In this document: positions 529 to 12,556 of the stretch, one piece after another
How positions within the stretch are numbered: position 1 is the first letter of the stretch
How the letters are laid out: every line of letters starts with the position of its first letter
IMG/VR virus record: IMGVR_UViG_3300047462_000101
Coordinates: 1-49,397 of that record
DNA: 49,397 nt
Origin: a virus
Reading direction: 5' to 3' (one strand)
Notes under the pieces: generated by a model
What the model was told of the DNA's origin: nothing
The model's database searches: none
Seen by the model: the letters and a program-made list of their open reading frames with translations, nothing else
Position numbers and translations under genes: made by a program

Positions 529-2490
529 ATGACAACACACAATATTTTTGCAAAGTTTCAGAAGCGCTACGAAGCGCGACAAGCTGAAGAGATGTCAATT
601 CAAGAGTATCTTGAACTTTGCAAATCAGATCCAACCACATACGCAACAACATTCGAACGTATGTTAAAGGCAATCGGGGACCCCCAGATTGTTGATACGA
701 GAACAGATGACCGCATGTCGCGCATCTTCATGAATCGCAAAATTAAGGTCTACCCTGCATTCGCAGACTTCTACGGAATGGAAGATACGATCGAGAAGAT
801 CGTCGCCTACTACAAACACGCTGCTCAAGGTTTGGAAGAATCCAAACAGATCCTTTACCTACTAGGACCTGTCGGTGGTGGTAAGTCGTCTCTGTCTGAA
901 CGATTGAAGGAACTTGCGCAGCGTGTTCCTATCTATGCATTGAAGTGCTTCAACAAGCAACGCAATGTTGATCAGATATCACCAATCCTTGAATCCCCTT
1001 TGGGACTATTTGATTCGAAGGAAGATGCAGCACTGATCCAAGAACAGTATGGAATTGGATCTCGCTACTTGAAGACTATCCCTTCACCATGGGCTGCAAA
1101 GCGTTTGCGTGAACATCAGGGAGATATCTCACAATTTCGAGTTGTAAAGATTTGGCCTTCGATTCTTGATCAACGTGGTATCACAAAGGTTGAGCCAGGT
1201 GATGAGAACAACCAGGACATCAGTTCGTTGGTTGGTAAGGTGAACATGCGTGAGTTGGAAGAGTACGAACAGAACGATCCAGATGCATACAATTGGGCTG
1301 GTGGCTTGAATGTCGCTACTCAAGGTGTGATGGAATTCGTTGAAATGTTCAAGGCACCAATTAAGATGTTGCACCCATTGTTGACAGCAACACAGGAAGG
1401 ACATTACAACGGTACAGAACAGTTCGGTGCGATCCCTTTCCAGGGTTCTATCCTTGCTCACAGCAACGAAACGGAATGGCAGAACTTCCGCAACAATAAG
1501 ACAAACGAAGCATTCTTGGATCGTGTCTACATTGTTAAGGTTCCATATTGCTTGCGCGTTACAGAAGAAGAGAGAATTTACCAGAAGTTGATTACTAACT
1601 CTGAACTCTCACAAGCTCCTGTTGCTCCAGGTACATTGAACTTGCTTGCACAGTTCTCAGTCTTGACTCGCTTGAAGGAACCAGAAAATAGCACTCCATT
1701 CTCAAAGATGGAAATCTATGATGGTAAGAACCTTAAGGATAAGGATCCAAAGGCAAAGAGCTTGGAAGAGTATCGTGATGCTGCAGGTGTTGATGAAGGT
1801 ATGGAAGGTTCTTCTACACGGTTCGCTTACAAGATTCTTTCACAGGTGTTTAACTTTGATCCAGATGAAGTTGCTGCAAATCCAATTCACCTTTTCTATG
1901 TGTTAGAGAAGCAGCTACAACAGGATGGATTGCCACCTGAAGAAGAGACTCGTCGCATTGATTTCATTAAGGGAATCCTTGCACCTAAGTATGCAGAGTT
2001 CATTGGTGATGAATTGCAGAAGGCATACCTCGAGAGCTACCACGAGTATGGTCAGAATTTGTTCGATCGATACATTATGTTTGCAGATGCTTGGATCGAA
2101 CAGAAGGATTACCGCGATCCAGATACAGGCGAGATGTTTGATCGTGAAGCATTGAACAGCGAACTTGAGAAGATCGAGAAGCCAGCTGGTATTGCAAATC
2201 CAAAGGACTTCCGAAACGAGACTGTTGGATACGTACTTCGCTACGGTAAGAGCAATCAGGGTAAGAACCCAGATTGGACGAACTACGAGAAGCTTCGTCA
2301 GGTCATCGAGAAGAAGATGTTTGCAAATACGGAGGAATTGCTTCCAGTAATCTCCTTCAGCAAGAAGGCTACTGCTGAGGAAGAAGAGAAGCACAATGAC
2401 TTCGTATCACGTATGACCAAGAAGGGTTATACTGCTAAGCAAGTTAGGTTGGCCGTAGAATGGTTCATGCGCTATCGCAAGCACAACTAA
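529..2490 (+). CDS. prkA: PrkA/YeaG family serine protein kinase (AAA+ domain)
   Basis: This 653-residue protein is close to the usual length of bacterial PrkA/YeaG (about 640). A Walker A motif GPVGGGKS lies at residues 113-120 and the PrkA-type C-terminal region follows. The ATG at 529 is preceded by AGGAGAG at good spacing. PrkA is known as a serine kinase with an AAA+ domain, later also reported as an ATPase/protease-like factor, involved in stationary-phase, stress and sporulation responses. It is the first gene of a three-gene set with YeaH and SpoVR, in the order seen in bacterial genomes. A role in rewiring host stress physiology during infection is inference. Codon use looks like the neighbouring phage genes, so the acquisition is not recent. 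Confidence 0.9.
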   Translation: MTTHNIFAKFQKRYEARQAEEMSIQEYLELCKSDPTTYATTFERMLKAIGDPQIVDTRTDDRMSRIFMNRKIKVYPAFADFYGMEDTIEKIVAYYKHAAQGLEESKQILYLLGPVGGGKSSLSERLKELAQRVPIYALKCFNKQRNVDQISPILESPLGLFDSKEDAALIQEQYGIGSRYLKTIPSPWAAKRLREHQGDISQFRVVKIWPSILDQRGITKVEPGDENNQDISSLVGKVNMRELEEYEQNDPDAYNWAGGLNVATQGVMEFVEMFKAPIKMLHPLLTATQEGHYNGTEQFGAIPFQGSILAHSNETEWQNFRNNKTNEAFLDRVYIVKVPYCLRVTEEERIYQKLITNSELSQAPVAPGTLNLLAQFSVLTRLKEPENSTPFSKMEIYDGKNLKDKDPKAKSLEEYRDAAGVDEGMEGSSTRFAYKILSQVFNFDPDEVAANPIHLFYVLEKQLQQDGLPPEEETRRIDFIKGILAPKYAEFIGDELQKAYLESYHEYGQNLFDRYIMFADAWIEQKDYRDPDTGEMFDREALNSELEKIEKPAGIANPKDFRNETVGYVLRYGKSNQGKNPDWTNYEKLRQVIEKKMFANTEELLPVISFSKKATAEEEEKHNDFVSRMTKKGYTAKQVRLAVEWFMRYRKHN

Positions 2491-2513
2491 TAGCTCGGTA
2501 TCCATAAGTAATA

Positions 2514-2539
2514 GAGGGGATTACGAAAGTAATCCCCTC
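2514..2539 (+). promoter_or_regulatory. Perfect intergenic stem-loop with GAAA tetraloop
   Basis: GAGGGGATTAC, loop GAAA, GTAATCCCCTC: an 11-bp perfect stem closed by a GNRA tetraloop between prkA and yeaH. No T-run follows, so it is not a standard terminator. The yeaH ribosome binding site (GAGGAG, 2542-2547) starts two bases after the stem. It may stabilise or punctuate the mRNA or modulate yeaH translation. Confidence 0.7.
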
Positions 2540-2553
2540 ACGAGGAGAAATTA

Positions 2554-3864
2554 GTGGCCTACGTAATTATCGATCGTCGTAAAAATGACAAGAACAAGTC
2601 TTCGACAAATCGCTCAAGATATGTTCGTCGTGTTCGTGAACAAGTCAAAGAAGCCGTAAAGGACATCATTCGTGATGGTTCCATTCAAGATAGTTTGAAT
2701 GGTGGTGCTAAAAAAATCAATATTAAGAAGAAAGGATTAACTCAACCTGAGTTCCAACACGATCGTTCGGGTGGGATTCGTGATATTGTTCGTCCTGGCA
2801 ATAAGGAATATGAGGCAGGTGATCGTTTTCCAAAACCACCTGGTGGTCAAGGTGCAGGAGGAAAAGGCAAAGGATCTCCTGATGGTGAAGGTAATGATGA
2901 GTTCGAGTTCACACTCTCTCGTCAAGAGTTCCTTGATTTATTCTTTGAGGATCTTGAACTTCCTGATATGATTAAGAAGGATATGGTCTCTACTGAAACC
3001 TACACAATGAAGCGTGCAGGATTTAGTGTAGATGGTAATCCAAGCAGGTTGAATATTCTTCGTTCGATGAAGTTTGCAAAGAGTCGTCGTATCGCTCTTA
3101 AGGCTCCAAAGAAGAAAGAGATTCGTGCATTGGAAGAAGAATTAGCTTTACTCCAAAAATCATTTGGGTTTGACAATGACACAAATGGAGAGATCGCAGC
3201 TCGTATCGAATTCTTAATCGAAGAGATTGCAAGATTGTATCGTAAGAAGAAGGCAATTCCATTTGTTGATGATATGGACTTGAGGTATAATCGTTGGGAG
3301 AAGTTTCCAAACCCAACTACACAAGCTGTAATGTTTGGATTGTTGGATGTATCTGCTTCTATGGATGAGTGGAAGAAGGAAATGGCAAAGAGGTTCTTTA
3401 TCCTTATGTTGCTATTCCTACAGCACAATTACGAACGTGTTGATATTGTTTGGATTCGTCACCATACAACTGCAAAGGAAGTTGATGAAGATACATTCTT
3501 TCATTCGCAGGAAAGTGGTGGTACAGTTGTATCTACTGCATACGAACTAATGATGCAGATCATTAAGGAAAGGTATCCACTAAGTCAATGGAATGTTTTT
3601 GGTACTCATATCTCTGATGGAGATAATTATAGTCCTGATAATACTATTGCAACAGAAATACTTAGTAAGCAAATTCTTCCTGCAAGTCAGTACTTTGCGT
3701 ATGTTGAAGTTAAGAAGGGAGCCGACTCTCAAGGAACAAATAGCGATTTGTGGCCTATCTTTAAACCAATTCAAGACGTTAACAAGAACTTTGTTATGTC
3801 TGTAATAGGTGATGTTAATCAGATCTATCCAATGTTCCGTAAACTATTTGAGAAGAGAAAGTAA
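2554..3864 (+). CDS. yeaH: YeaH/YhbH family protein (DUF444, vWA-like)
   Basis: The 436-residue protein begins at a GTG preceded by GAGGAG. The N-terminal part is basic and Gly-rich (around residues 85-115), as in YeaH/YhbH proteins. Near residues 263-270 the motif LLDVSASMD matches the metal-binding D-x-S-x-S of von Willebrand A domains. The family partners genetically with PrkA/YeaG in bacteria. Its biochemical activity is not well defined; a metal-dependent adaptor role is inference. The stop codon is one base from the spoVR start, so the two are very likely translated together. Confidence 0.9.
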   Translation: MAYVIIDRRKNDKNKSSTNRSRYVRRVREQVKEAVKDIIRDGSIQDSLNGGAKKINIKKKGLTQPEFQHDRSGGIRDIVRPGNKEYEAGDRFPKPPGGQGAGGKGKGSPDGEGNDEFEFTLSRQEFLDLFFEDLELPDMIKKDMVSTETYTMKRAGFSVDGNPSRLNILRSMKFAKSRRIALKAPKKKEIRALEEELALLQKSFGFDNDTNGEIAARIEFLIEEIARLYRKKKAIPFVDDMDLRYNRWEKFPNPTTQAVMFGLLDVSASMDEWKKEMAKRFFILMLLFLQHNYERVDIVWIRHHTTAKEVDEDTFFHSQESGGTVVSTAYELMMQIIKERYPLSQWNVFGTHISDGDNYSPDNTIATEILSKQILPASQYFAYVEVKKGADSQGTNSDLWPIFKPIQDVNKNFVMSVIGDVNQIYPMFRKLFEKRK

Positions 3865-3865
3865 T

Positions 3866-5422
3866 ATGTCTGAATTTTTAATTACTGATGGTCAAGAGTG
3901 GTCGTTTGATATGGTTGATGATACGTACAACCACTTGAATCGTATTTGGAAGGCAAAGTATAACTTTCCAATCTATCCAAACCAACTTGAGATTATTTCA
4001 AGCGAACAAATGCTTGATGCATATTCTGCTGTTGGTATGCCACTAATGTACAATCACTGGTCATATGGTGAGCAATTCATTCGTGAACAAGAAGCATACA
4101 AGCGTGGCTATATGGGACTTGCATACGAAATTGTTATTAACTCTGATCCATGTATTGCATATCTGATGGAAGAGAACACAATGTTGATGCAAGCGTTGGT
4201 TACTGCTCATGCATCGTTTGGACACAATACGTTCTTTAAGAACAACTATTTGTTTAAGCAGTGGACAGATGCTGGATCGATTATTGATTACCTTGCATTC
4301 GCAAAGAAGTATATCACCACTTGCGAAGAGAAGTATGGAATGGATGAAGTTGAATCAATCCTTGATGCTGCACATGCTCTCCAACGATATGGTGTCGATA
4401 AGTACAAGCGTCCACCAAAACTATCTGCTGCAGAGGAAGAGAAGTTGCAAAAGGATCGTGAAACGTATCGTCAATCACAACTAAATGATTTGTGGCGTAC
4501 GATTCCTATTGGACCAAGGACAAAAGATAAGTTGGTTAATGAAGATCAATTTCCAAAGGAACCACAAGAGAACTTGCTCTATTTTATTGAGAAGAATGCT
4601 CCACGTCTTAAAGAGTGGCAGCGTGAGATCATTCGCATTGTTCGCAAAATTGCTCAATACTTCTATCCGCAGGGACAAACGAAGTTGATGAATGAAGGTT
4701 GTGCAACATACTTTCACTACAAATTGATTCACGATCTCTATGATGAGAAGTTGTTGGATGATGGTGCGTTGATGGAATTCTATCATTCGCATACTGGTGT
4801 TATTCGTCAACTTGACTATGATCACAAGTACTATTCAGGAATTAATCCATATGCACTTGGGTTTGCAATGTATCGTGATATTGAACGAGTTGCAATGGAA
4901 CCAACAGAAGAGGATCGCGAGTGGTTTGGTAATCAGGATTGGGTAGGTAGTGGTGATTATCTTTCAACAATTCGTTTTGCAATTGAAGGTTTTAAGGATG
5001 AAAGTTTCGTACAGCAATTCTTATCACCAAAAGTAATTCGAGACTTCAAGCTATTCACAACACACGATGATGAAGCAGATCCAAAATACTTAATCTCTGC
5101 TATCCACAACAAGCAAGGTTATAAATTAGTTCGTGAATCACTTGCAAAGAACTATAACTTTGGTTATATGATTCCTGATATTCAAGCTGTCAGTGTTGAT
5201 CGGTGGGGTGATCGTTCTCTAACACTTCGCCACTATATGGTAGATAACCGTCCGCTTGAAGCTGAAACTGCAACAGAGACATTGAAGAGAGTTGCATTCC
5301 TTTGGGGATATGATGTCAAGTTGGAGTCCGTAGACGCGAAGCATGAAGTACGTGCTTCGTTTGAAGTACAAGGTGATAAAACTCTACTGGACGTGTTCCT
5401 GGATGATGGAAGTAAAAAATAA
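3866..5422 (+). CDS. spoVR: SpoVR family protein
   Basis: The 518-residue protein matches the SpoVR/YcgB family in length and in many features: the early W-x-D-T-Y-x-H-L-N-R region, FGHNTFFKNNYLF near residues 115-127, and the NEGCATYFHY segment near residue 275, where conserved acidic and His residues lie. An upstream in-frame ATG at 3809 exists, but it would overlap yeaH by 56 bases. The ATG at 3866 follows the yeaH stop directly and has a purine-rich GAAGAGAAAG before it. Bacterial SpoVR is needed for spore cortex formation in Bacillus and is co-conserved with PrkA and YeaH in non-spore formers. Function in a phage is unknown. Confidence 0.9.
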   Translation: MSEFLITDGQEWSFDMVDDTYNHLNRIWKAKYNFPIYPNQLEIISSEQMLDAYSAVGMPLMYNHWSYGEQFIREQEAYKRGYMGLAYEIVINSDPCIAYLMEENTMLMQALVTAHASFGHNTFFKNNYLFKQWTDAGSIIDYLAFAKKYITTCEEKYGMDEVESILDAAHALQRYGVDKYKRPPKLSAAEEEKLQKDRETYRQSQLNDLWRTIPIGPRTKDKLVNEDQFPKEPQENLLYFIEKNAPRLKEWQREIIRIVRKIAQYFYPQGQTKLMNEGCATYFHYKLIHDLYDEKLLDDGALMEFYHSHTGVIRQLDYDHKYYSGINPYALGFAMYRDIERVAMEPTEEDREWFGNQDWVGSGDYLSTIRFAIEGFKDESFVQQFLSPKVIRDFKLFTTHDDEADPKYLISAIHNKQGYKLVRESLAKNYNFGYMIPDIQAVSVDRWGDRSLTLRHYMVDNRPLEAETATETLKRVAFLWGYDVKLESVDAKHEVRASFEVQGDKTLLDVFLDDGSKK

Positions 5423-9206: not shown

Positions 9207-9736
9207 AGAAGATACTTCCAGAAATAGTTGTTGCTGTTGATTGCGAAGGTGGATTTGGCAAGGATGGTCAAATCCCATGGCACTTACCAGAGGATATGAA
9301 ACGATTCAAGGAATTGACGACAGGTCATGTCTGTGCAATGGGTCGTCATACATTCAACGATATGTTGGATATGAGAGTGAAGAGAGATGCAGAGAAAGGA
9401 ATCAATCTTCCTATCAATGAGATTCTTCCTGGACGTGATTGTTATGTGATTACTAAAAATCAAGATTACAAAACACCAGGTGCAACTCGTGTTAACAGTT
9501 TAGGTAATGTTCGAGATAAGATTAAAGAGGATTCCAAAAGACTATTTGTGATTGGTGGTCGAAGGATGTTTATTGAAGCACTATCATGGTGCGAGACAAT
9601 TCACATGACGGTAGTAAAGGGTGATAGGTATAATTGTGATACCTTCTTTCCTATACAGGTACTAAATAAAAAATTCGAAATTAAGTCAGGCGAAGAAACT
9701 GACAAAGCCTATTATGCTGTTTATAAACGCAAGTAA
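9203..9736 (+). CDS. Dihydrofolate reductase
   Basis: A 177-residue protein with the DHFR layout: VVAVDCEGGFGKDGQIPWHL at residues 9-28 (Met20-loop equivalent, ending in W-H-L-P-E-D with the catalytic acid), MGRHTFNDM (NADPH site) and VIGGRRMFIEAL (second cofactor loop). It reduces dihydrofolate with NADPH and so partners ThyA. An insert near residues 55-75 (KRDAEKGINLPINEI) separates the MGR helix from the next strand. In T4 the equivalent is frd, next to td, the same neighbourhood as here. Confidence 0.93.
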   Translation: MKKILPEIVVAVDCEGGFGKDGQIPWHLPEDMKRFKELTTGHVCAMGRHTFNDMLDMRVKRDAEKGINLPINEILPGRDCYVITKNQDYKTPGATRVNSLGNVRDKIKEDSKRLFVIGGRRMFIEALSWCETIHMTVVKGDRYNCDTFFPIQVLNKKFEIKSGEETDKAYYAVYKRK

Positions 9737-9748
9737 GGGGTATAAGAA

Positions 9749-9943
9749 ATGGCGAAGTTGTGCACTGCAGGAGTACGTGGTCCGTACTCGTATGTAATTT
9801 TAAATAACGTTAGCGACGTTGTTGTGGCAGTTAAGGAAGATGATAGAGAGATCATCACAACACATCTCGATATGGATGTAGCAGAAAGGTGGGTCGATAA
9901 ACATTTAGACTCACTAGTTGAAAGGAATTATGAAGTTGATTGA
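9749..9943 (+). CDS. Small hypothetical protein
   Basis: A 64-residue acidic protein with a start preceded by AAGGGG. No motif is recognised. Its 3' end overlaps the start of the Acb1-like gene by 14 bases, which supports coupled translation. Confidence 0.6.
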   Translation: MAKLCTAGVRGPYSYVILNNVSDVVVAVKEDDREIITTHLDMDVAERWVDKHLDSLVERNYEVD

Positions 9944-10424
9944 AATTGCTTCGCCACGAGGAACATACTTCGGGTTGAAGCCAACAAAAGAAACTGTAGC
10001 AGCAATGCGAGAGTTCATGGGAGATCATAGAATCCCAAATCCATTAGAGGATCACAAGCTACATGCAACGGTTGTCTATAGCCGAGCATTTGTTGGAGCT
10101 CGCCCTCTTGGTGAACTTGATCCAACCTGGAAAGGAAAGTTTACAGATTACGATATCTTTCAAACGAGTCCAAAGGTAGAAGAGAGTACTGGTGAATCAA
10201 GACGTTGTTTAGTAATGAAGTTTGATTGTCCTGAAATTCACGAACGTCATCATTACCTTCGTAAGCATCATGGTGCAACTCACGACTTTCCAAACTTTGA
10301 TCCGCACATGACAATGTCGTATGATGTTGGTGAATTTGATCATCAGAATTTACCAGAGTATGATGGTCCTCATGAATTTCATGAAGAATATTCTGAACCT
10401 CTTGACTTGAACTGGGTAAAATAA
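9930..10424 (+). CDS. 2H phosphoesterase, Acb1 (T4 57B)-like, candidate anti-CBASS nuclease
   Basis: A 164-residue protein with two H-x-T motifs, H45-A-T47 (KLHATVVYS) and H126-M-T128 (DPHMTMSYD), the signature of 2H phosphoesterases. The stretch GATHDFPNFDPHMTMSY and overall length resemble T4 gp57B, known as Acb1, which cleaves the cyclic oligonucleotide signals of CBASS immunity. ATG 9930 has AAAGGAA upstream and is preferred over the TTG at 9918. Assignment to Acb1 rather than another 2H group is from recalled motif spacing. Activity on cyclic nucleotides is inference. Confidence 0.72.
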   Translation: MKLIEIASPRGTYFGLKPTKETVAAMREFMGDHRIPNPLEDHKLHATVVYSRAFVGARPLGELDPTWKGKFTDYDIFQTSPKVEESTGESRRCLVMKFDCPEIHERHHYLRKHHGATHDFPNFDPHMTMSYDVGEFDHQNLPEYDGPHEFHEEYSEPLDLNWVK

Positions 10425-10463
10425 AGGTCTTGACATTACGGTCTCAGTATTTTTAACGAAGAG

Positions 10464-10494
10464 TTGACCAAGTTTACTGGGTAGTGTATAAATA
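10464..10494 (+). promoter_or_regulatory. Promoter of the tmRNA gene (sigma70-type plus perfect late box)
   Basis: TTGACC (10464-10469), 17-base spacer, then TATAAATA (10487-10494). The same bases serve as a good -10 element and as a perfect T4 late promoter box, so the tmRNA could be made both by host sigma and by a late phage sigma. Transcription would begin near 10500. Confidence 0.7.
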
Positions 10495-10563
10495 CGCCCA
10501 TGGTTGTATATCTGTTGAACTGACAGAATGATGGACCCGGTTTCGATACCGGCATCTCCACCA

Positions 10564-10607
10564 AATACAGTTACCAGCATGATCGTTTCATAACTGGTAA
10601 CTACTGA
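10564..10607 (+). ncRNA. Intervening segment of the permuted tmRNA precursor
   Basis: This lies between the encoded CCA and the 5' G of the coding piece. It contains a perfect 9-bp hairpin, AGTTACCAG (10569-10577) with CTGGTAACT (10594-10602). In known two-piece tmRNAs the corresponding segment is removed by processing. The hairpin sits where RNase P and 3'-processing enzymes would cut. Confidence 0.75.
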
Positions 10608-10690
10608 GGGGATGATAGGATTTCGACACATTAGATAGGAACAACGGCAACACGTCAGGTGATCGACGTTAATGAAACAAAACTATAAAC

Positions 10691-10738
10691 GCAGCAAACG
10701 ATGCTATGTTTGATCAGGATTTTGCACTAGCTGCTTAA
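10691..10738 (+). other. tmRNA tag reading frame (A)ANDAMFDQDFALAA
   Basis: GCA GCA AAC GAT ... GCA CTA GCT GCT TAA. The start AND and the end ALAA match the conserved ends of bacterial SsrA tags; the terminal ALAA is the kind of signal recognised by ClpXP. Whether the resume codon is the GCA at 10691 or 10694 cannot be fixed from sequence. Confidence 0.85.
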
Positions 10739-10780
10739 TCTCTGAACGGAGTAGAGACCACTTGTCAACAGAACGGTCAG

Positions 10781-10819
10781 AAAAGGCGAACCCCTTAAAA
10801 AGGTTCGCCTTTTTCTTTT
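10781..10819 (+). terminator. Rho-independent terminator of the tmRNA gene
   Basis: AAAAGGCGAACC (10781-10792) pairs with GGTTCGCCTTTT (10802-10813), followed by TTCTTTT. A 12-bp perfect stem. It separates the tmRNA from the ClpP-like gene, which must be read through or have its own promoter. Confidence 0.92.
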
Positions 10820-10879
10820 GGTCTTTAAAAATCATTCCACTAAATAGTTCGTTGAAAAATAAACAATTAAAGGATCGAA

Positions 10880-11467
10880 ATGGTTAATGATAAGCCAAAA
10901 AAGCTCGATGATGATACCGATAGACCTTACGCCCATTACGAACAAACAATTACCCGCAGAGTACTTCACTATTATTTAAGTTGTGCAATCGAGCAGCCAT
11001 CTGAATATATTGAAATGATTCATCGCATACAGACTGCAACTGCTGATGAGATTGTCTACGTTCACTTGAACACTCCAGGTGGACAATTGGATACTGGTGC
11101 TCAAATTATTAATGCAATGCAGTCTACACAAGCTCACGTAATTGTTAGCATTGAAGCAAATTGCCATTCACTTGGCACATTAATCTTCTTAGCTGCAGAT
11201 GAGTTTATTGTTCACGACAACTGCTTAATGATGATCCATAACTACAGTGGTGGTATATGGGGTAAGGGTAATGAACAACAATCCCAACTCGAAGGTCAAA
11301 TGAAATGGTTCAACACATTGGCAAAGAGGTTGTACATTCCTTTTCTATCTGCTGATGAGTTTGACCGTGTAGTTCGTGGCGAGGACTTATGGTTGCAGTC
11401 TGACGATATCCGCAAACGACTTGAGAAAATGGTTAAGATTAAAAAGAAGAACGTTGAAAAGAAGTAA
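10880..11467 (+). CDS. clpP: ClpP-like serine protease
   Basis: A 195-residue protein, the usual ClpP length. The catalytic triad can be placed: S97 in NCHSLGTLIF, H120 in MMIHNYSGG, and D169 in GEDLWLQS, close to E. coli mature numbering (97, 122, 171). NTPGGQLDTG (residues 64-73) is the usual oxyanion and substrate-strand region. The Ser context is C-H-S-L-G instead of the common A-A-S-M-G or A-M-S-M-G. The C-terminus is Lys-rich. The start is preceded by AAAGGA. ClpP forms a barrel fed by ClpX or ClpA; no Clp ATPase gene is in the window, so it would have to use the host unfoldase or act in another way, for instance as a prohead protease. Its place right after the tmRNA suggests a link to degradation of tagged proteins. 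Confidence 0.85.
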   Translation: MVNDKPKKLDDDTDRPYAHYEQTITRRVLHYYLSCAIEQPSEYIEMIHRIQTATADEIVYVHLNTPGGQLDTGAQIINAMQSTQAHVIVSIEANCHSLGTLIFLAADEFIVHDNCLMMIHNYSGGIWGKGNEQQSQLEGQMKWFNTLAKRLYIPFLSADEFDRVVRGEDLWLQSDDIRKRLEKMVKIKKKNVEKK

Positions 11468-11482
11468 GGGTTTACTTATGGT

Positions 11483-12556
11483 ATGGACATGGACGTCCTC
11501 CCACTCGAACAAATAATTCGCCAATACATTCCTCTTCCGCACGTAGCTTCAGGAACAGGTTGGTATCAAGTCCTTTGCAAAGTATGCAACGACTCAGGCA
11601 GAAAGGGTCCTCGAGCTGGATTTAAATTTGATAGTAATCAAGTTGTCGGCTACCATTGTTTCAATTGTGGACACAAAGCAAAATACGATCCTGCTACGAA
11701 TCGAAGCCTATCAAAGGCGATGACAGAAATCCTAACAAGCTTCAATGTTCCAAAGGATGAAGTTGATAAGCTAAAACTTGAAGCTTTCAAACCACGAGAT
11801 TTGATTATTAATACACCAACTCAATCTATCATTCAGCAGATTGAGCCAATGGTAGTTCCACTCCCTTCTCACTTCTATCCGTTATCAGAAGCAAGTCCAA
11901 ATGACGTTTGGGGTCAGATTGCCTTGGACTATTTGGAATATGATAGAGGCATTGACCCTAAATCTCATCCATTCTATTTGGCTCATAAAACTGGTGATCC
12001 GAAGCTAGATCGTTGGTTTGGCAGGGTTATTATTCCAATCTATAAAGATGACAACCTGATCTTCTATATAGGGCGTGATTTAACAGGGAAAAAACAAAAG
12101 AAGTATCTATCTCCTTCATATTCAAAGGAAAAAATAATTTATGGTTTTCACGAGTTATATCGTGAAACAGAAGAACCACTATACATAGTAGAAGGGTGGT
12201 TCGATGCATTCGTGATAAATGGAGTTGCAATTTTAGGCAACGAGATCTCTGAAGCACAAACTACTTGGCTTAACAAATCATACAGAAAGAAAGTTTATAT
12301 TCCAGATAGGTTTGGTGATGGATGGGTTGCTGCTGAACATGCGTTAAAAAAAGGTTGGTCAGTATCAACTCCTGAAATAGGAAATTGTAAGGATATAAAT
12401 GAAGCCGTACTAAAATATGGCAAACTTTATGTAATGAAGTCCATTGCAGAAAACATTGCAGAGGGCTTCACAGCTCAAGCAAGGCTTGGAGTTTATTGCA
12501 AGTATGACTCAACTAACAAGGATCGCAGCAAGAAGAAAAATCAAGGCTCACCTTAA
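11483..12556 (+). CDS. DNA primase (T4 gp61-like, zinc finger plus TOPRIM)
   Basis: A 357-residue protein. A zinc-binding site C32-x2-C35...C59-x2-C62 lies at the N-terminus (LCKVCNDSG, HCFNCGHK), as in primases. A TOPRIM-like core follows: PLYIVEGWFDAFVINGVAILG near residues 232-252, with the conserved Glu in VEGWFD. It makes RNA primers on the lagging strand and would work with the DnaB-like helicase encoded further on. The ATG at 11483 is preceded by AAGGG at slightly long spacing; ATG 11489 is an alternative. Its 3' end overlaps the SprT-like gene. Confidence 0.85.
   Translation: MDMDVLPLEQIIRQYIPLPHVASGTGWYQVLCKVCNDSGRKGPRAGFKFDSNQVVGYHCFNCGHKAKYDPATNRSLSKAMTEILTSFNVPKDEVDKLKLEAFKPRDLIINTPTQSIIQQIEPMVVPLPSHFYPLSEASPNDVWGQIALDYLEYDRGIDPKSHPFYLAHKTGDPKLDRWFGRVIIPIYKDDNLIFYIGRDLTGKKQKKYLSPSYSKEKIIYGFHELYRETEEPLYIVEGWFDAFVINGVAILGNEISEAQTTWLNKSYRKKVYIPDRFGDGWVAAEHALKKGWSVSTPEIGNCKDINEAVLKYGKLYVMKSIAENIAEGFTAQARLGVYCKYDSTNKDRSKKKNQGSP

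Follow-up and report, generated by a model that had tools for sequence, protein, structure and literature searches.

Here we describe a circularly permuted, two-piece tmRNA gene, complete in its sequence, in a phage that belongs to the T4 superfamily in the broad sense. In bacteria, tmRNA releases stalled ribosomes and marks the incomplete proteins for degradation. The gene lies in a viral record of 49,397 nt with no stated completeness (hereafter referred to as the window), and in it the 3′ acceptor strand and the encoded CCA precede the 5′ acceptor strand. Its elements and its ClpP neighbour are legible in the sequence (Table 1).

A permuted tmRNA gene

An Rfam model search matched positions 10502–10738 to RF04321 (tmRNA_permuted; 109 bits, E 1.8e-20, cut-off 47 bits), and the gene covers that model over its full length (positions 1–213). 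The RF01850 model (beta_tmRNA) matched at 10450–10816 with 87.2 bits (E 5.1e-25), barely above its gathering threshold of 84 bits; the same locus of L003, an otherwise near-identical phage, scored 93.1 bits. Both scores for the window are far beyond chance. An earlier note on this DNA, which proposed the gene, had staked its reading on a match to a permuted tmRNA model, and both models are matched above their cut-offs. Independently, ARAGORN called a permuted tmRNA at 10472–10829 with the tag AANDAMFDQDFALAA followed by TAA, bearing out the ALAA-stop ending that the note had read. The permuted order, the tRNA-like parts and the tag frame are all where the note had placed them, and its CCA end (10563), 5′ acceptor start (10608) and spacer length (44 nt) are exact. 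The gene itself, extending from about 10450–10502 to 10816–10829, is somewhat larger than the 10500–10780 given there.

Table 1 Features of the tmRNA locus and its neighbours in the window
Feature	Position	Strand	Basis
Acb1-like anti-CBASS protein, upstream neighbour	9918–10424	+	PF23474, 118 bits
Promoter-like TTGACC (10464–10469), 17 nt, TATAAA (10487–10492)	10464–10492	+	By eye
Acceptor piece: 5′ strand of long pairing, T-arm, CATCTCC, ACCA	10502–10563	+	RF04321 alignment
CATCTCC; ACCA	10553–10559; 10560–10563	+	Read from sequence
Hairpin-forming spacer, 44 nt, predicted to be removed	10564–10607	+	Fold z −4.9 (against mononucleotide shuffles)
GGGGATG (10608–10614), D-region, pairing strand GGCAAC, hairpin CGTC/GACG	10608–10690	+	RF04321 and RF01850 alignments
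Tag frame AANDAMFDQDFALAA and stop TAA	10691–10738	+	ARAGORN
Terminator-like hairpin and T run	10784–10819	+	By eye
ClpP-like protease, 195 aa, directly downstream of the tmRNA	10880–11467	+	PF00574, 46.6 bits; phrog_1827, E 6.2e-56; triad; fold
gp61-like DNA primase, next in the conserved order	11483–12556	+	phrog_47, E 5.5e-37; synteny

RNA structure and evidence of selection

The acceptor stem that the earlier note had drawn between GGGGATG and CATCTCC is paired at all seven positions (G10608–C10559 through G10614–C10553), and G10610–U10557 is its G3–U70 pair. A G–U at the third acceptor pair is the identity element for alanine (AlaRS). Across 25 distinct phage tmRNA stem combinations, 172 of 175 acceptor cells are paired (shuffled mean 157, maximum 165); G3–U70 is present in 25 of 25, and compensatory variation is seen at positions 4–5. 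The window and L003 stand outside this count because their T-arms are odd and the script did not place them. The near relative L002 has the acceptor stem GGGCCTG/CAGGTCC, and a tag-side hairpin GGAC/GTCC where the window has CGTC/GACG; these stems differ yet still pair, so both helices are preserved through compensatory change. The spacer hairpin is retained in L003 with G–U changes. Co-folding of the two predicted pieces, a check that the earlier note had proposed, was not significant (shuffled acceptor pieces were as strong in 115 of 200 cases). This is unsurprising because the RNA is pseudoknotted, but it lends no support.

The T-arm of the window carries UUCGA and is one base short, giving a 6- or 8-nt T-loop, as against the canonical 5-bp stem, 7-nt loop and UUCRA. 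The T-arm of L003 is also unusual-looking, so the tRNA-like domain could be altered; that of L002 at the equivalent locus is canonical and one base longer than the window's. The window and L003 arms differ from each other, and each is self-complementary. Since L004/L005, from another phage, carry the T-arm of the window, a sequencing error is unlikely.

Promoter-like and terminator-like signals

The earlier note had credited the gene with its own promoter and terminator. Both are legible by eye, the latter as a hairpin of AGGCGAACC (10784–10792) and GGTTCGCCT (10802–10810) around a 9-nt loop, followed by a T run; a consensus scan of the window listed neither, since it allows neither a 9-nt loop nor a second hexamer ending in a base other than T. 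L002 has TTGACA-17-TATAAA at the position equivalent to the promoter-like site. Overlapping this element, TATAAATA (10487–10494) is common to the window, L003 and L002; it matches the T4 late-promoter motif, but with 5 sites against 3.05 expected the window shows no enrichment of this 8-mer. That this is a deliberate gene, as the note had argued from these signals, is better supported by the compensatory changes and by the conserved position in relatives, to which promoter and terminator add less.

Gene neighbourhood

The DNA polymerase of the window has its nearest matches in the Xanthomonas jumbo phage XacN1 (42%) and the Stenotrophomonas phages CM1 and RAS14 (40%), so the description of the phage as T4-like is valid in a broad sense. 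Other genes of T4-superfamily type in the window encode a topoisomerase II, the gp61-like primase, a DnaB-like helicase, a thymidylate synthase and a DHFR. Elsewhere in the window (529–5422) lies a PrkA (YeaG)–DUF444 (YeaH)–SpoVR (YcgB) trio, a bacterial stress-response set carried here by a phage; three records of uncultured phages, about 640 kb in size, contain PrkA homologues at 57–61%.

The downstream protease belongs to the same ClpP family as KVP40 ClpP and phrog_1827 of T4-type phages (39% identity to KVP40 ClpP). Its triad of Ser97, His120 and Asp169 is invariant in all seven aligned phage sequences, Asp169 being assigned through hand alignment to E. coli D171. A monomer model (pLDDT 78.5) found solved ClpPs in Foldseek with E 1.2e-8 and a TM of about 0.6.

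Within this phage group, three diverged lineages share the order tmRNA–ClpP–primase: A (window, L003 and L002), B (L048 and L036, both read completely, with ClpP at 53%; L008 and L034, with the same tmRNA and adjoining ClpP) and C (L110 and L014, both read completely, with ClpP at 37%; L113, with adjoining tmRNA and ClpP). ClpP identity drops to 37% across the lineages with the triad retained. RAS14 has ClpP and, after it, the same primase (32% identity), with no permuted tmRNA present; the adjacency of tmRNA and ClpP may therefore be ordinary conserved synteny, and we do not claim a functional module. We also considered whether ClpP always follows the permuted tmRNA in phages and rejected this, as endolysin, terminase or unknown genes take that place in other groups. 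Directly upstream of the tmRNA, the Acb1 anti-CBASS gene occupies the same side in lineage C.

Localized divergence of the tRNA-like half

Between the window and L003, identity per 50-bp bin is 96–100% over 9300–10400 and 10650–11400, and only 23–86% over about 10418–10640, which spans the promoter, the tRNA-like piece and the first part of the mRNA-like piece. Between these two phages the tag half has stayed unchanged. The pattern is most simply read as recombination of the tRNA-like half. In L002 (ClpP 77% identical), the permuted tmRNA at the same place is very different (RF04321, 136.4 bits) and was missed by ARAGORN; its best older Rfam model is alpha_tmRNA (90.1 bits), whereas at the same locus that of the window is beta_tmRNA.

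Permuted tmRNAs in other phages and in bacteria

A permuted tmRNA in a phage is not new. The earlier note knew of none; a two-piece tmRNA was reported in 2022 in the marine myophage Melnitz, in a paper that counts 53 phage tmRNAs for which ARAGORN gives a two-piece call (PMC9004378), and we found permuted tmRNA genes in more than 100 IMG/VR contigs and in the T4-like isolate DLP6. The IMG/VR pattern scan gave at least 120 loci, with permuted calls by ARAGORN in most among the matches listed. Predicted tags of 28–33 aa (ARAGORN only) occur in three of the phage genes (L031 6074–6499, L072 511–914 and L047 6136–6524).

Four isolates carry the permuted form: DLP6 (T4-like, Stenotrophomonas; RF04321, 136.8 bits), the jumbo phage XacN1 (123.2 bits), BUCT-ZZ01 (111.9 bits) and HTVC008M (90.6 bits). 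XacN1 has two copies, consistent with terminal repeats. The inspected stretches of the GenBank annotation of all four contain no tmRNA feature, and the DLP6 and XacN1 papers do not mention a tmRNA. Like the window, DLP6 and XacN1 are T4-superfamily or jumbo phages with RF04321 matches; their permuted tmRNAs adjoin tRNA genes, whereas that of the window adjoins ClpP. A GOLLD RNA (227 bits; L128 7571–7984) lies about 1 kb downstream of an unannotated permuted tmRNA in XacN1. Melnitz and its relatives share with the window a circularly permuted two-piece tmRNA in a myophage, but the Melnitz gene is of alphaproteobacterial type with a reported glutamine riboswitch, whereas the gene of the window is best matched by the beta model and has ClpP downstream; a text search of that paper found no mention of ClpP (PMC9004378).

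With betaproteobacterial tmRNA (RF01850/RF04321) the gene of the window shares the order of the pieces, the tRNA-like pairings, G3–U70, the hairpin and the ALAA tag end; it differs in its 15-aa tag (Thauera: ANDERFALAA) and in the T-arm that is one base short. Near and distant BLAST searches of GenBank phages with the gene and with positions 1–24000 of the window returned no match. In a tree of 60 tmRNA sequences, too many forks were weak to place the window, which had no supported bacterial neighbour among those sampled; its nearest row is viral (L099, 63% identical). When bacterial genomes were scanned by pattern, many of the matches were false (tandem tRNA genes, probably), and only ARAGORN-confirmed loci were therefore used. 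Two of these are in Stenotrophomonas genomes, L193 (3468–3810, tag ANQVDYHQARIAA) and L232 (351–703, tag ANADYYDQDEEVILRVA); the L193 genome has a standard tmRNA (191 bits) besides the permuted one.

Proposed mechanism and alternatives

The gene probably specifies a working phage-borne two-piece tmRNA of the bacterial kind that would use host processing enzymes, AlaRS and SmpB. A single precursor would be transcribed from the gene's own promoter, and host tRNA-processing nucleases would excise the spacer hairpin, yielding an acceptor piece with a CCA end and an mRNA-like piece that starts with GGGGATG. Joined by pairing in the acceptor stem and at a second site, the two would be charged by host AlaRS through G3–U70. 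A search for SmpB in the window and 44 other records, complete XacN1 and RAS14 included, found none, from which we infer dependence on host SmpB; with it, the tmRNA would enter ribosomes that have stalled on damaged mRNA in infection and resume on the tag frame. The ALAA-ending tag would then direct the product to a ClpP-type protease, and degradation could involve a host unfoldase paired with the ClpP of the host or with the adjacent phage-encoded ClpP-like protein. Huge phages with both tmRNA and SmpB have been reported (PMC7162821).

The irregular T-arms of the window and L003 would also suit a phage RNA that hinders trans-translation in the host, one that is charged or binds SmpB, works poorly and competes with the host tmRNA; as cited in PMC11915505, a tag-less tmRNA of phage DS6A inhibits the endogenous tmRNA when expressed in E. 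coli. The irregular T-arm and such competition are the chief doubts about a working tmRNA. A competitor would have no need of a tag, however, and an intact tag frame with its stop and ALAA end is retained in the window and its relatives (many other phage tags called by ARAGORN also end in ALAA), which makes interference quite unlikely. Recent capture of a host gene, or of an island remnant, that has no function in the phage is more improbable still: although tmRNA genes are frequent integration targets and the best older model is the bacterial beta_tmRNA, the position is conserved over deep divergence, the stems of L002 and the window show compensatory changes, no close bacterial relative appeared among those sampled and there is no integrase among the annotated genes nearby.

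The conserved order in three lineages and the complete ClpP triad favour a further reading, whereby the tmRNA would act with the phage ClpP next to it to recycle host or aborted proteins. RAS14 has the ClpP–primase pair without the tmRNA, ClpP lies 3–20 kb away from the tmRNA in other phages, and a terminator-like hairpin separates the two genes here; we regard such a tag-and-degrade module, in which this ClpP would have to recognize the tag, as tentative and rather unlikely. Similarly doubtful is its extension, in which a coupled tmRNA–ClpP module would have a tRNA-like half exchanged independently of the tag half, perhaps driven by host nucleases or by adaptation to different hosts. A working two-piece tmRNA that relies on host factors is the reading we prefer.

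Implications

The well-supported permuted tmRNA described here, together with several unannotated ones in cultured phages, joins a small reported set (overlap with the 53 of PMC9004378 is possible). DLP6 and XacN1 infect Stenotrophomonas and Xanthomonas, and the one Stenotrophomonas genome examined has both forms, so permuted tmRNAs may be carried by phages into lineages whose usual tmRNA is in one piece. The tmRNA–ClpP pair and the localized exchange of the tRNA-like half offer a way to test whether an infecting phage conducts tagging and degradation of its own.
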